Assembly: GCF_004799665.1 (NCBI RefSeq)
Contig: NZ_CP031310.1
Location: 2,348,887 to 2,412,886 of the forward strand
Direction of reading: 5' to 3'
Source of the DNA: Halapricum salinum
Lineage (GTDB): Archaea > Halobacteriota > Halobacteria > Halobacteriales > Haloarculaceae
Length of the DNA stretch: 64,000 bases
The position numbers and the translations under genes were made by a program. Positions 42,859-49,577 of the stretch are shown one piece after another (the stretch's first letter is position 1; each line of letters begins with the position of its first letter). The notes beneath the pieces are model-generated. The model was not told the origin of the DNA. It saw only the letters and a list, made by a program, of their open reading frames with translations, and did no database searches.

Positions 42859-44280
42859 TCATGCCAGGTTCACCTCCTTCAGGTCGCGTACGTCTGTGAC
42901 CTCTCCCGTCACCGCGGCAGCGGCGACCATTCGCGGGTTCATCAGCACAGTTCTCCCGTCCTTGCTGCCCTGGCGGCCGATGAAGTTCCGGTTCGAGGAG
43001 CTGGCACAGGCCTCGTCGCCCTCCAGCTGGTCCTCGTTCATGCCCAGACACATCGAACAGCCGGCGTTGCGCCACTCGAAGCCGGCCTCCTCGAAGGTGT
43101 CTTTCAGGCCTTCTTCCTCGGCGGCTTTCTGGACACGCTGGCTGCCGGGAACGACCATCGCACGCACGTCCTCGTCGACCTGCCGGCCCTCGACGATCCG
43201 GGCCGCGCGGCGCAGGTCGGGCAGGCGAGCGTTCGTGCACGAACCCAGGAAGGCCACGTCGATGTCGTAGCCGTTCATCGTCTCGCCGGGCTCGACGCGC
43301 ATGTGCTTCTGGGCGCGCCGGGCGGTGTCGACCTTGTCGTCGGCCAGATCCTCGGGGGCCGGGATCGGATCGTTGATGCCGATCCCCTGGCCGGGCGTGG
43401 TGCCCCACGTGACGACCGGGTCCAGCTCGCCGGCGTCGATGTGGACGACGTCGTCGTACTCGGCGCCGTCGTCGGACTGGATGGACTCCCAATAGGGCTT
43501 CAGGTTCTCGAACTCCTCGGGGTTGTCCTGGAAGTAGTCGGTCTCTTTCAACCAGGCGAAGGTGGTCTCGTCGGGATTGACGTAGCCCGCGCGAGCGCCG
43601 CCCTCGATGGACATGTTACAGATGGACATTCGGCCTTCCATCCCCAGGTCCTCGATGGCCTCGCCGGCGTACTCGTAGACGTAGCCGACGCCGCCTTCCG
43701 TACCGAGTCGACGAATAATTTCGAGGATGATGTCCTTGGCCTCGACGCCCTCGCCGAGCTCGCCGTCGACCTGGATCTTGCGTACTTTCTGCTTCTCCAT
43801 CGCGATGGTCTGGGTGGCCAGGACGTCCCGGATCTGGGAGGTCCCGATCCCAAAGGCCAGCGCGCCAAAGGCGCCGTGGGTCGACGTATGAGAGTCACCG
43901 CAGACGATGGTCTTGCCCGGCTGGGTCAGGCCCTGCTCCGGACCGACGACGTGGACGATGCCCTGATCCCCGGTGGTGGGGTCCAGGAAGTTGATGCCCG
44001 CGTCCCGAACGTTCTCTTCGAGTTCGGACATCATGGTCTCGGCGGCGTCGTCGGTGTAGGGTCGCGACTGGTCGGCCGTCGGGACGATGTGGTCGACAGT
44101 GGCGAGCGTCAGGTCCGGTCGCGCGACCTCGATGTCCCGTTCCCGGAGCATACCGAACGCCTGCGGGCTGGTGACCTCGTGGATGAGGTGGAGTCCGACG
44201 AACAGCTGATCCTGCCCGTTGGGCAGGGTCGTCACCTTGTGGCGATCCCACACCTTGTCGTACAGTGTTCCCTGACTCAT
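42859..44280 (-). CDS. leuC: 3-isopropylmalate dehydratase large subunit
   Basis: 473 residues. [13 protein letters not shown] and [12 protein letters not shown] are at the N-terminus, followed by [20 protein letters not shown]. The [4Fe-4S] cysteines sit in [10 protein letters not shown] and [11 protein letters not shown]. Together with LeuD it forms the isomerase of leucine biosynthesis. It starts at ATG 44280. The 79 nt between the upstream small acidic protein gene and leuC contain two small inverted repeats (ATCAC/GTGAT at 44285-44297; GCTCGC/GCGAGC near 44323-44342) that may modulate translation. Confidence 0.95.
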
Positions 44281-44359: not shown

Positions 44360-44573
44360 TCATACTGAATCCGCTCGTCCTTCGGTGCCGCGCTCGAAGG
44401 CGGGGTTGGCACCCTCGCCGGGCGGCTCGTGGTCGACGTCTTCCATGGTCTCTTCCTCTGTTTCTTCGGCGTTCGCTCGGCCACCGTCGGCGGCCACGTC
44501 CGGGCCGCGCTTGAAGGCCGCGCCGAAGGTCTTGTCCGTGTGTGGATGCGTGTGATCCACGTCTTTCATCTCG

Positions 44574-44581
<8 letters not shown>
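44360..44581 (-). CDS. Small acidic protein between ilvC and leuC, internally repeated
   Basis: 73 residues, strongly acidic and His/Glu-rich. Two imperfect copies of one motif are visible: [20 protein letters not shown] near the start and [19 protein letters not shown] in the second half (DVDH...AFxRG). The start ATG 44581 overlaps the ilvC stop (ATGACTGA), implying translational coupling. No known domain is recognised and it is probably largely disordered. Its position inside a conserved biosynthetic operon suggests an accessory role for IlvC or the isomerase. An alternative is a non-functional spacer frame, but the base composition and coupling favour a gene. Confidence 0.5.
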
Positions 44582-45605
<1,024 letters not shown>

Positions 45606-45626: not shown

Positions 45627-46247
45627 TCAGTTATCGCTTTCCATTGTCTTCGACCCGTTCTCCATGGTCTTTGATCCACGTTCGAGCGCAGCTGCGCCCG
45701 TGCGGACGACCTCGAGGATCTCGAACTGCTCGAAAGCCTCGACGGCAGCGTCGATCTTCTGCTTGCTGCCGGTGACTTCGACCGTGACGGCGTCCTTGCT
45801 GGCGTCGACGGCGTCGCCGCCGTACATCCCTGCGACCGCCTGGACGTCGTCGGGCTTCTCGCCGGCGACCTTGATCAGCGCCAGTTCACGACGCATGGCC
45901 GCCGACTCCAGTTCCTCGACCTCGATGACCGGGATGAGCTTCTTCAACTGCTTTTTGGCCTGCTGGACGCCCGGTTCGGGCTCCTCGATGACGATCGTCA
46001 TCCGGGCGATATCGTCGTCTTTCGTCGGTCCAACAGTCAGACTCTCGATGTTGAACTGCCGGCGGCTGAAGAGTCCGGACACTTCCGAGAGGACGCCGGG
46101 CTCGTGTTTCACGCGCGCCGACAGCACGGCCAGACGTGGTTCGTGTGTCGCTTCCGCTTCGGGATCGATCCTGATTCCTTGGGTGTTGCGCCGACCGCTC
46201 GGACGCATCCGCTCGTCCGGGGCCGGTCCGGGCATGTCTCCAGGCAT
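45627..46247 (-). CDS. ilvN: Acetolactate synthase regulatory (small) subunit
   Basis: 206 residues. The ACT domain begins LAVLSARVKHEPGVLSEVSG with FSRRQFNIESLTVG, the motif that binds feedback-inhibiting valine in IlvH/IlvN. A second ferredoxin-like C-terminal domain follows (RRELALIKVAGEKPDDVQAV). The tail contains a near-perfect repeat, GSKTMENGSKTMESDN, probably a slippage product. It starts one nucleotide after the ilvB stop. Confidence 0.94.
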   Translation of the reverse strand: MPGDMPGPAPDERMRPSGRRNTQGIRIDPEAEATHEPRLAVLSARVKHEPGVLSEVSGLFSRRQFNIESLTVGPTKDDDIARMTIVIEEPEPGVQQAKKQLKKLIPVIEVEELESAAMRRELALIKVAGEKPDDVQAVAGMYGGDAVDASKDAVTVEVTGSKQKIDAAVEAFEQFEILEVVRTGAAALERGSKTMENGSKTMESDN

Positions 46248-46248
46248 C

Positions 46249-48018
46249 TCAGATCATCTCCAGGTGGTCCTCGTTCAGTGCGAATAGGCCGTTGTCCCCG
46301 CCACTGGGGACCATCGGGTAGACGTTCTCGGCGGGGTCGATGATCGCGTCGACGACTGCGGGGCCGTCGTACTCGCGGGCGGCCTGGATCGTCGACTCGA
46401 CCTCGTCGGGATCCTCCAGACGGAACCCGCGCGCACCGAACGCCTCCGCCAGCTTGTCGAACTCCGGGATCCACGGATATTCGGAGGCCATCCGGCGGCC
46501 CTCGTAGAAGCCGTCCTGCCACTGCCGGACCATCCCGACGGCCTCGTTGTTCAGGACGACGTAGGTGATATCCAGATTCTCCCGCACGGCCACGGAGAGT
46601 TCCTGAACGGTCATCAGGAAGGATCCGTCACCGTCGAAACAGACGACTTCCTTCTCGGGAGCCCCCAGTTTCGCGCCGATCGCGGATGGGACGCCGTAGC
46701 CCATCGTCCCCAGTCCGTTCGAGGAGACCCACGTGCGCGGATACTCGTAGGTCCAGAACTGGCAGGCCCACATCTGATGCTGGCCGACGCCGGTCGTGAC
46801 GATGGCGTCGTCGTCGGCCAGTTCGTCGAATTTCTCGACGACGTACTGTGGTTTGAGCGGCTCGTCGTCGGGCATCTCGTACTCCAGCGGATACTCGTCT
46901 TTCCAGGTCTGGCACTGCTCGCGCCACTCGTCGGCGTCGGGCGCGCGGGTCATCGCGTCGTCGAGCTGTTCGAGGACGCGCTCTGCGTCGCCGATCAGCG
47001 GGTAGTCCGCCTCGATGTTCTTGGAGATCTCGGCGGGATCGATCTCGACGTGGATGATGTCCGCATCGGGTGCGAAGGTCTCGACGCCACCAGTGAGGCG
47101 GTCGTCGAAGCGGGTCCCGACGCCGAGCAGGCAGTCGGTGTTGGTGACCGCCATGTTGGCCGCGCCGGTCCCGTGCATGCCGGCCATGCCCACCGAGAGG
47201 TCGTCGGTCTCGGGGAAGCAACCCAGGCCGGGCATCGTCGTGATGACCGGGATCTCGTACTCGCGAGCGAAGTGCCGCAGTTCGTCGCTGGCCTCGCTCT
47301 TGATGACGCCCCCACCAGCCAGGATGGCCGGTTTCTCGGCCTGTCGCAGGGCTTCGGCGGCTGCCTCGACGATGACCTCGTCGGCCTCGACTGGCTCCTG
47401 GTGGGTGTCGGGCGTCTCGGGCTTCTCGGGCCATTCCGTCGTCGGCCCTTTGGTAATGTCCTTGGGCAAGTCGACCAGCGTCGGGCCCTGCCGCCCCTTC
47501 TCGGCCAGCGCGAACGCCTCGCTGACGTCGTCGCCGACGGTGTCGGAGTCGTCGGAGAAGTAGTTCTCCTTGGTGACTGGCATCGTGATGCCCGTCGTGT
47601 CGACTTCCTGGAAGGCGTCGTTACCGACGAAGTCGGTTGCGACCTGTCCAGTGAGGGCGATTATCGGGTCCGAATCCATCGCCGCGTCGGCGAGACCGGT
47701 CACGAGATTTGTCGCGCCGGGGCCGGAGGTGGCAAGCGCCAGCCCGGGCTCGCCGGTGACGATACCGTAGGCGTCCGCAGCGTGGGATGCGCCCTGCTCG
47801 TGGGCCATCGTGATGTGGTCGATCGACGAATCGTACAGCGCGTCGTAGACGGGCATGATCGCCCCGCCCTGCACGCCGAAGGCGTGGGAGACGCCGGCCT
47901 GTTCGAGGGCGGCGATCACGGACTGTGCGCCGGTCGTCACCTCGTCGATGCCGCGCTGTTCGGTCTCGTCTGTGTCTTCTGTCGCGTCCTCTTTGGGGAT
48001 CGATGCACGTTCGCTCAT
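46249..48018 (-). CDS. ilvB: Acetolactate synthase catalytic (large) subunit
   Basis: 589 residues, TPP/FAD-dependent. An acidic N-terminal extension precedes VIAALEQAGVSHAFGVQGG. It contains the TPP glutamate region ITMAHEQGASHAADAYG, the central FAD-binding domain, and a C-terminal TPP motif beginning CFDGDGSFLMTVQELSVAV and closing at YVVLNNEAVGMVRQWQ. It condenses pyruvate to acetolactate, or with 2-oxobutyrate to acetohydroxybutyrate. ATG 48018. The 331 nt upstream hold a TATA box, a 27-codon leader frame and hairpins, suggesting control separate from leuA. Confidence 0.96.
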   Translation of the reverse strand: MSERASIPKEDATEDTDETEQRGIDEVTTGAQSVIAALEQAGVSHAFGVQGGAIMPVYDALYDSSIDHITMAHEQGASHAADAYGIVTGEPGLALATSGPGATNLVTGLADAAMDSDPIIALTGQVATDFVGNDAFQEVDTTGITMPVTKENYFSDDSDTVGDDVSEAFALAEKGRQGPTLVDLPKDITKGPTTEWPEKPETPDTHQEPVEADEVIVEAAAEALRQAEKPAILAGGGVIKSEASDELRHFAREYEIPVITTMPGLGCFPETDDLSVGMAGMHGTGAANMAVTNTDCLLGVGTRFDDRLTGGVETFAPDADIIHVEIDPAEISKNIEADYPLIGDAERVLEQLDDAMTRAPDADEWREQCQTWKDEYPLEYEMPDDEPLKPQYVVEKFDELADDDAIVTTGVGQHQMWACQFWTYEYPRTWVSSNGLGTMGYGVPSAIGAKLGAPEKEVVCFDGDGSFLMTVQELSVAVRENLDITYVVLNNEAVGMVRQWQDGFYEGRRMASEYPWIPEFDKLAEAFGARGFRLEDPDEVESTIQAAREYDGPAVVDAIIDPAENVYPMVPSGGDNGLFALNEDHLEMI

Positions 48019-48078
48019 GCTCGATCACCGCGTGTTGGGTGTCGTTGGTACATTGGTGGATTGCTGTCTGGCTGGTCG

Positions 48079-48133
48079 AAAACGGTACGAACCGGGTCGA
48101 AGGAGACGGGTGAAGTGGGGCCTAGACAGCCCC
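48079..48133 (-). promoter_or_regulatory. Hairpins between the leader frame and ilvB (attenuator-like)
   Basis: In the minus-strand transcript GGGGC and GCCCC (48129-48133 and 48117-48121) pair around a 7-nt loop that contains the leader's TAG stop codon. Further on, CGGTTCGTACCG is a 4-bp hairpin (48083-48094) followed by UUUU (48079-48082), resembling a small terminator. Ribosome position on the leader would determine whether the first hairpin forms. No alternative antiterminator pairing was proven by eye. Confidence 0.4.
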
Positions 48134-48205
48134 TACAATAGCGCCGAGAAGGACGAGCGCGCCGCTGGTGACGGGGCGATCCCGGACGCCAGCGGTCTGT
48201 GTCAT
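48122..48205 (-). CDS. Putative branched-chain amino-acid leader peptide upstream of ilvB
   Basis: A 27-codon frame starting at ATG 48205 and ending at TAG 48122-48124. It opens MTQTAGVRDRPVTSGA and closes LVLLGAIVGAV: seven of its last eleven residues are Leu, Val or Ile. Three of these use codons unusual for this GC-rich genome (CTT, ATT, GTA). The ATG is about 29 nt from a TATA box, so the mRNA would begin at this frame. Leader peptides of the regulated amino acids control ilvB, ilvGMEDA and leu operons in bacteria by attenuation. It could instead be a tiny membrane protein. Confidence 0.5.
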   Translation of the reverse strand: MTQTAGVRDRPVTSGALVLLGAIVGAV

Positions 48206-48349
48206 CAGTATGTGTCTGTAATCGCCCCGAATAATAAGGTTTCTGTGAGAGACGCTGACGAGGACTCGTTCGAGCGACCGTCGTGGCGCCCGCTGGCGAA
48301 CGGGACAGCGGCCGCTGGGCCGCTCGTGCAGACGGTGTGGCCGACATCG
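48134..48349 (-). other. leuA-ilvB intergenic region
   Basis: The 331 nt between the leuA stop (48350) and the ilvB start (48018) hold, in transcription order, about 110 nt with no recognisable feature (48239-48349), the TATA box, the leader frame and the hairpins. No RNA gene was recognised. Confidence 0.5.
48231..48238 (-). promoter_or_regulatory. TATA box of the ilvB leader transcript
   Basis: CTTATTAT on the minus strand, centred about 29 nt upstream of the leader ATG at 48205 and about 215 nt upstream of ilvB. It implies an internal promoter in the leu-ilv cluster and a transcript that starts at the leader peptide. Confidence 0.55.
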
Positions 48350-49577
48350 TCAGGCGTGGACCTCCTCGGTCCCGGCGCGCTCGACGCCGACCTCGTCGGC
48401 GAACCGTTCGAGGACGTCCATCGTGACCTGCCGTTTCTCCGCGCCGTAGTCCTTGACGCGGCGGGTCACCTGTCGGACCTCCTCGTCGGTCGGATTGTAG
48501 CCCGCCTCGATCAGTCGCTCGCGTACCGAGTGGGTGCCGGTGTGCTTGCCCAGCACCAACTCGCGAGTCGCGCCGACCATCTCCGGGGTCATCACGCCTG
48601 GCTCGAAGGTGTCGGCGTTCTCGATGACGCCCGCTGCGTGGATCCCGCTCTCGTGGGAGAAGGCGTTCCCGCCGACGACCGGCTTGTTGCCGGGAACGTC
48701 GATCGAACTCTTCTCTTCGATCACCCGGGAGAGCTCGGTGATCCGGGTCGTGTCGATCCCGGTATCGACGTCGTACAGCGATTCGAGGGCCATGACGACT
48801 TCCTCGTAGGCGGCGTTGCCCGCCCGTTCGCCGATCCCGTTGACCGAGACCTGCGCCTGGGCCGCGCCGGCCTCGTAGCCCGACAGCGCGTTGGCTGCTG
48901 CCAGCCCGAAGTCGTCGTGGGTGTGGACGTCCACGCGAGCGTCCGTGTGCGCGACGACTTTCCCGACCATTTTCTCGAACCGGCCAGGGGTCGCGACGCC
49001 CGTGGTGTCCGGGATGTTGATCCAGTCTGTGCCCGCGTCCGTGACGGCCTCGACGACGTCGATCAGGAACGCTTCCTCCGTGCGGGTCGCGTCCATCGGC
49101 GAGAACATGCACTCGACGCCCGCGTCTTTGACGCGCTCGACGGACGTGACTGCCCGTTGTAGTGCGTCTTCGCGGGTGGCGTGCATGCTGTCCTGGAGCT
49201 GGATGTCGCTGGTCGAGACGAAGACGTGGACCAGTTCGACCCCGGAGTCGAGCGCCGCCTCGACGTCTTCCTCGACGACGCGGGCGAGCCCGCAGACCGT
49301 CGTGGACGTCGAGTTGGCGATGTCACGGACGGCCTCGAACTCCGCGTCGGAGTTGACCGGGAACCCCGCCTCGATGACGTGGGTCCCCATCTCGTCCAGC
49401 AGCGCCGCTATCTCGCGTTTGTCTTCGTAACTGAACGACGTGCCGGGCGATTGCTCTCCGTCGCGGAGCGTCGTGTCGAAAATTCGTGCCTCGTCGATTT
49501 CAGAGGTGCTATCGAGTGTGCCCTGGAAGAACTCGATCCGCCGGAGACTCCGACGTACCCTCAGTGTGTTGGGTCAT
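48350..49577 (-). CDS. leuA: 2-isopropylmalate synthase, apparently frameshifted near the 5' end
   Basis: The long frame covers the LeuA/HMGL TIM barrel. It includes the active-site RIFDTTLRDGEQSPGTSFSY, then GTHVIEAGFPVNSDAEFEAV, WINIPDTTGVATPGR and the metal motif VDVHTHDDFGLAAANALSG. The downstream accessory domain starts SHESGIHAAGVIE. Upstream of ATG 49390 this frame has no ATG, GTG or TTG before a TGA at about 49574-49576. Starting at 49390 would discard the catalytic DTTLRDGEQ. The plausible start, ATG 49577, fits a TATA box 30 nt away but is in another frame (MTQHTEGTSESPADRV, then stop). The frames would join near 49530, as if 5 bp (TCGAG) were lost. Either the gene is mutated or the sequence has an error. 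Confidence 0.75.

Follow-up and report, generated by a model that had tools for sequence, protein, structure and literature searches.

Leader-peptide control through ribosome stalling is a textbook bacterial mechanism. The bacterial ilv attenuators combine mutually exclusive antiterminator and terminator hairpins with a U-run directly after the terminator hairpin, and in E. coli tnaC arrest is triggered by free tryptophan and termination is brought about by Rho. We know of no demonstrated archaeal case of control by a leader peptide through ribosome stalling. The ilv attenuators described in bacteria (ivbL/ilvL; the Corynebacterium ilvBNC uORF, PMC10272879, PMC11857589) have, like the locus considered here, a short ORF rich in codons for branched-chain amino acids (BCAA) ahead of the same target operon, and they also place hairpins between the leader ORF and ilvB.

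In haloarchaea, dRNA-Seq of Haloferax volcanii revealed uORFs in long 5'-UTRs with mapped transcription start sites (PMC4983044, Table 2), among them one of 26 aa ahead of pheS and one of 23 aa ahead of a gene for tryptophan-tRNA ligase. That list does not contain ilvB, and neither cognate codons nor a regulatory role is described there. For leuA2 (HVO_1510), a neighbouring BCAA gene, slippage has already been proposed together with leucine dependence, i.e., translation that would vary with the leucine available (PMC8305020); the proposed slippage is inside the gene itself, in contrast to the separate leader peptide at ilvB. Full-text literature searches, with subscription papers and preprints outside their scope, gave no description of an ilvB leader of this kind in haloarchaea, in line with the first-pass annotation of this DNA, and no archaeal leader-peptide attenuation.

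The ilvB leader and its operon

The window, i.e., the whole stretch of DNA that was analysed (64,000 nucleotides), comprises bases 2348887-2412886 of the 3.45 Mb genome of Halapricum salinum, and the ilvB leader region lies on its minus strand. Compared by ilvB, the closest named relatives belong to Halapricum. The genes that follow 3' of the leader, ilvB-ilvN-ilvC-leuC, make up the cognate operon for biosynthesis of the BCAA (Ile, Leu and Val):

46249 to 48018, minus strand: ilvB, acetolactate synthase large subunit (TIGR00118, 698 bits against a cut-off of 538)
45627 to 46247, minus strand: ilvN, acetolactate synthase small subunit (TIGR00119, above cut-off)
44574 to 45605, minus strand: ilvC, ketol-acid reductoisomerase (TIGR00465, above cut-off)
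42859 to 44280, minus strand: leuC, 3-isopropylmalate dehydratase large subunit (TIGR00170, above cut-off)

From gene order and spacing alone, leuC is presumed to be co-transcribed as a downstream member of the ilvB operon. A 93-aa ORF between ilvC and leuC (44360-44641, minus strand) has no NCBIfam match. The features of the leader itself, from its promoter toward ilvB, are:

48230 to 48237, minus strand: putative TATA box of the leader promoter, TTATTATT, matching the consensus
48122 to 48205, minus strand: uORF1, a predicted leaderless leader peptide of 27 codons, MTQTAGVRDRPVTSGALVLLGAIVGAV, with an in-frame TATA-spaced ATG
48134 to 48157, minus strand: control codons CTC GTC CTT CTC GGC GCT ATT GTA (L V L L G A I V), enriched in Ile, Leu and Val and containing rare codons
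48117 to 48133, minus strand: GC hairpin GGGGCU-GUCUA-GGCCCC, the sole conserved helix, holding the stop codon of uORF1 in its loop and 3' side
48098 to 48116, minus strand: G-poor, pyrimidine-rich stretch holding the first T-tract position, which is weak here (CTCCTTC)
48079 to 48089, minus strand: CGYAYCG element (here CGTACCG, 48083-48089) and then TTTT, about 27 nt past the hairpin
48015 to 48053, minus strand: uORF2, MYQRHPTRGDRA, whose stop codon TGA overlaps the ilvB start codon (ATGA)

A BRE-like sequence, CACAGAAA, precedes the TATA box, which starts 32 nt before the ATG at 48205, the same distance as the modal spacing among relatives. The peptide ends in LVLLGAIVGAV at a TAG stop codon (48124-48122), and the hairpin arms GGGGCU (48133-48128) and GGCCCC (48122-48117) span this stop codon. 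The first-pass annotation had reported the TATA box, the 27-codon frame with this ending and the GC hairpin over its stop codon, all of which we find on the minus strand as described, and had missed uORF2. It had also reported a small hairpin and U-tract before ilvB; the sequence CGGT-TCGT-ACCG followed by TTTT (CGGTTCGTACCGTTTT) is indeed present at 48094-48079 (minus strand), but among relatives only the CGYAYCG sequence within it is conserved and not the structure. A search of Rfam 15 for known elements (T-box, riboswitches, ilv motifs) gave no match at E up to 1 in the region 47700-48400.

Conservation across Halobacteria

A leader of this type, i.e., a TATA-spaced short ORF ending in IVGA, IVGV or a close variant, is present at 145 of 153 ilvB loci, a set in which some species occur twice and which consists of 54 loci from named genomes and more obtained by pattern and protein searches. 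Of 292 genomes in the class, 237 (66 of 77 genera) match a degenerate pattern for the core, nearly all of them at a single site; the same pattern reversed matches 2 of 292. In a sample of the phylum the core pattern occurs in 41 of the 53 genomes that belong to the same order and in 1 of 242 others. We examined 30 pattern-negative genomes by way of ilvB itself, and most of them carry variants, for example Leu-Val (L088), Val-Val (L096, L104) or Met-Val (L089) in the core, or TGA as the uORF1 stop codon (e.g., L099-L102). In a deep branch (L115-L117) the leader is absent and ilvB lies directly 3' of a gene-coding frame, which appears leuA-like in our own reading of its translation. The alignment across Halobacteria that the first pass had proposed as a check thus finds conservation of the reading frame, of the run of Leu, Val and Ile with its rare codons, and of the hairpin.

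The reading frame is tied to the promoter. With the TATA box picked blind to reading frame, the first ATG past it (mostly 29-36 nt downstream) shares the frame of the Ile-Val core in 105 of 107 leaders, a nonredundant set from across Halobacteria in which leader length varies; 107 of 111 nonredundant leaders score 5-6 of 6 for the TATA box, and the consensus upstream of the TATA box is CACGGAA. Given this agreement of frames, and with 81% of the class carrying about one core match each, the predicted leader uORF is not a product of chance. Ile, Leu and Val make up 41% of the seven codons preceding the core in the uORF1 frame versus 8% and 4% in the other frames, and their share drops to about 10% further upstream in uORF1. 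There, in the N-terminal part, third-position bias is absent (102/105/100 differences), as expected if the control codons alone matter, and without it purifying selection over the entire peptide is ruled out.

The control codons are also unusual in kind, as the first pass had noticed for CTT, ATT and GTA: in seven large ORFs of the window these account for 2.5% of Leu, 5% of Ile and 1.6% of Val codons respectively. The Ile-Val core is near-invariant, with substitutions limited to Val, Leu or Met, and where uORF1 reaches the hairpin's 5' arm it ends in a near-invariant Ile-Val(GUA)-Gly(GGG). Specifically, the core Ile codon is ATT in 106 of 145 leaders, far above its use in the large ORFs, and CTT and GTT are enriched too. 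The core Val codon is GTA, an invariance that in the table of 145 loci is partly by construction because GTAGGG[GC] was required in building it; in a search for GGGG...CCCC alone, GTA again precedes the hairpin in ilvB leaders.

The loop of the hairpin varies from 5 to 9 nt among leaders. The stop codon begins within it in 105 of 110 leaders and beyond the hairpin in five nonredundant leaders, a shift seen at loci L090-L094. The inner pair of the stem alternates between C-G and U-A, in step with codon four and with the stop codon, giving 89 Watson-Crick pairs compared with at most 85 in 5000 shuffles, a contrast that is inflated by relatedness, and compensatory stem variants (GGGCC/GGCCC) are found at loci L103 and L038. 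The 15 nt that follow the hairpin contain 2-5% G (110 leaders). T-rich 4-mers are commonest at +10-14 past the hairpin, with a lesser peak at +35-39, the tracts being short (3-4 T). Further downstream, the CGYAYCG element has an information content of 10 bits versus 3.4-3.8 in shuffles and is often followed by T or C. A uORF2 promoter would have its TATA box close to this element, but the element keeps no steadier distance from the ATG than the hairpin does, and we rejected this assignment.

Proposed mechanism and its alternatives

The haloarchaeal leader shares with the bacterial ilv attenuators a run of codons for the end products, placed directly upstream of the cognate operon. Unlike them, it is predicted to sit on a leaderless mRNA, and its stop codon lies in the loop of a single hairpin. 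Folding of three clade alignments gave this single hairpin and no conserved competing or antiterminator helix, and the intrinsic-terminator arrangement of a GC hairpin followed directly by a U-run was not found, the T-rich positions being offset by 10-14 nt. Judged by its sequence, the leader is like a bacterial attenuator in its sensor and departs from it in structure, and because antiterminator and adjacent U-run are both missing we set it apart from the bacterial family; no sequence relation to the bacterial ilv leaders was found. What stands of the first-pass reading is a BCAA leader peptide for ilvB in a haloarchaeon, conserved across Halobacteria, while the detailed match to the bacterial attenuators is not supported for the leaderless, antiterminator-free leader with its displaced T-tract.

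That the leader peptide is real and conserved is clear from the comparison of genomes, which also shows selection for Ile, Leu and Val, with rare codons, at the end of uORF1, and the peptide is very probably BCAA-sensing. We are confident that a translated BCAA leader regulates ilvB in cis. Our preferred account, toward which we lean with moderate confidence, is a cis-acting, ribosome-sensing leader in which stalling on uORF1 and transcription termination together would control the ilvB operon; for termination as the regulatory output, taken separately, we consider the case only slightly favourable. The signal would be where on uORF1 the first ribosome stands. When charged tRNA-Ile, -Val and -Leu are plentiful, this ribosome would complete uORF1 and depart, the hairpin would form, and RNA polymerase would halt at the T-stretch/C motifs just 3' of it, alone or with FttA/aCPSF1, leaving little ilvB mRNA. 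When the tRNAs are uncharged, the ribosome would stall at Ile-Val. Given its usual footprint, a ribosome whose A site holds the Ile or Val codon should cover the 5' arm and block the hairpin, such that transcription goes on, and on the read-through mRNA ilvB would be translated via the BCAA-poor, start-coupled uORF2.

The fixed spacing from hairpin to T-tract and the G-poor stretch speak for this account. The offset of the T-tract leaves termination possible because archaeal termination differs from bacterial, and hairpin plus T-tract form a plausible attenuator because in Hfx. volcanii a T-stretch with a final C acts as a transcription terminator, as did one hairpin element (PMC7237163). FttA, a candidate termination factor here, prefers and binds U-rich RNA, and its exclusion by a coupled ribosome is a hypothesis of the same study (PMC11616081). 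As in tnaC, we infer that a stalled ribosome would mask a termination region adjoining the leader stop codon, where the G-poor stretch and both T-tract positions would make a candidate loading region for the factor; unlike in tnaC, the trigger would be uncharged tRNA and termination would involve FttA or a T-stretch. Several observations speak against attenuation: there is no alternative antiterminator helix, and the T-tracts are short, the first one in this genome being CTCCTTC. Furthermore, the Ile, Leu and Val codons at -3 to -7 would stall the ribosome too early for it to cover the hairpin, the strict GTA and the CGYAYCG element fall outside the explanation, and in the five leaders noted above the stop codon comes only after the hairpin.

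The role of uORF2 bears on a tentative alternative that we regard as unlikely, namely that the stalling leader acts on the full-length mRNA by translational control, without transcription attenuation: finishing or stalling on uORF1 would alter the hairpin and hence initiation at the ATGA-coupled uORF2. The ATGA overlap with the ilvB start occurs in 74 of 109 leaders, and the first ATG past the hairpin usually lies at +59 to +73 (+62 to +71 in the middle half of leaders). The ilvB gene often starts with ATGAGC, so that an ORF in this frame would stop at the ilvB start by default, and the evidence for the overlap is instead that the first ATG falls in that frame far more often than one time in three. 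The uORF2 codons avoid Ile, Leu and Val (1.8% versus 6.5% expected from composition and 8-10% in other frames). These features and the single hairpin without antiterminator suit translational control, which leaves the T-tract at fixed spacing past the hairpin unexplained and has to contend with some 20 leaders that have no uORF2, where ilvB itself starts in its place. Neither uORF2 nor ilvB has a promoter of its own in the leaders compared, TATA scores being low. The coupling of uORF2 to ilvB, its avoidance of these codons and the missing ilvB promoter also fit the predicted leader in the termination model, and the two kinds of control may both act.

Arrest by the nascent peptide seems to us quite improbable. 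Here the C-terminal IVGA or IVGV would stall the ribosome on free BCAA or another ligand, as in TnaC, rather than on uncharged tRNA, which would suit the almost invariant IVG[AV] end and the free N-terminal part. What is conserved, however, is codons (GTA, GGG, ATT) and not residues alone, the upstream residues that would line the tunnel are conserved merely as any of Ile, Leu and Val, and the core Ile is swapped for Val, Leu or Met in some leaders. We reject, as having next to no likelihood, the reading of the strongly conserved inverted repeat near the promoter (GTAGGGGC...GCCCCTAC) as a repressor binding site with an incidental ORF, since the arm spacing is not fixed (loops of 5-9), the in-frame TATA-spaced ATG and the in-frame enrichment of Ile, Leu and Val would be unexplained, the outer GTA is conserved though each of its bases could pair in only about half of leaders, and about one site per genome leaves no regulon.

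Leaders of other genes and significance

Cognate leaders of other genes lend support to the predicted ilvB leader. Before pheS (loci L158-L180 scanned), about 15 of 23 relatives have leaderless ORFs ending in GFGFFF-like runs, this genome among them (L176, near -957), and before trpS short ORFs with WRWR-like runs occur in about 10 of 24, again including this genome (L264, near -452). These predicted leaders are the Phe and Trp counterparts of the ilvB leader; the same kind of scan among relatives found nothing conserved before trpC, hisG or ilvD. At some pheS loci, the Phe codons include CGGTTTC, the complement of a GAAACCG further downstream. In trpS leaders (loci among L257-L280) the WRWR is followed by DS[LV]AA.

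At leuA2 (about 49577 to 48350 of the window, minus strand) a TATA-spaced leaderless ATG opens a frame of 20-25 codons (...SPADRVLPGH... and a stop), and the catalytic LeuA frame is in +1 at 53 of 53 related loci, across the sequence CGA GTT CTT CC, which is conserved. At many loci a canonical in-frame start is lacking close by. These features point to a possible programmed +1 frameshift, at rare codons for Val and Leu.

We consider about as likely as not a broader reading, in which haloarchaea would possess a general and independently evolved system of amino-acid-sensing leaders (ilvB, pheS, trpS and possibly the leuA2 frameshift) whose stalling controls transcription termination, which would be the first ribosome-mediated attenuation in Archaea. 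If true, it would point to more than one origin of attenuation, in this case on leaderless mRNA with no antiterminator, and it would provide a natural regulatory readout for archaeal transcription-translation coupling and for termination by FttA and T-stretches in a tractable genus (Haloferax).
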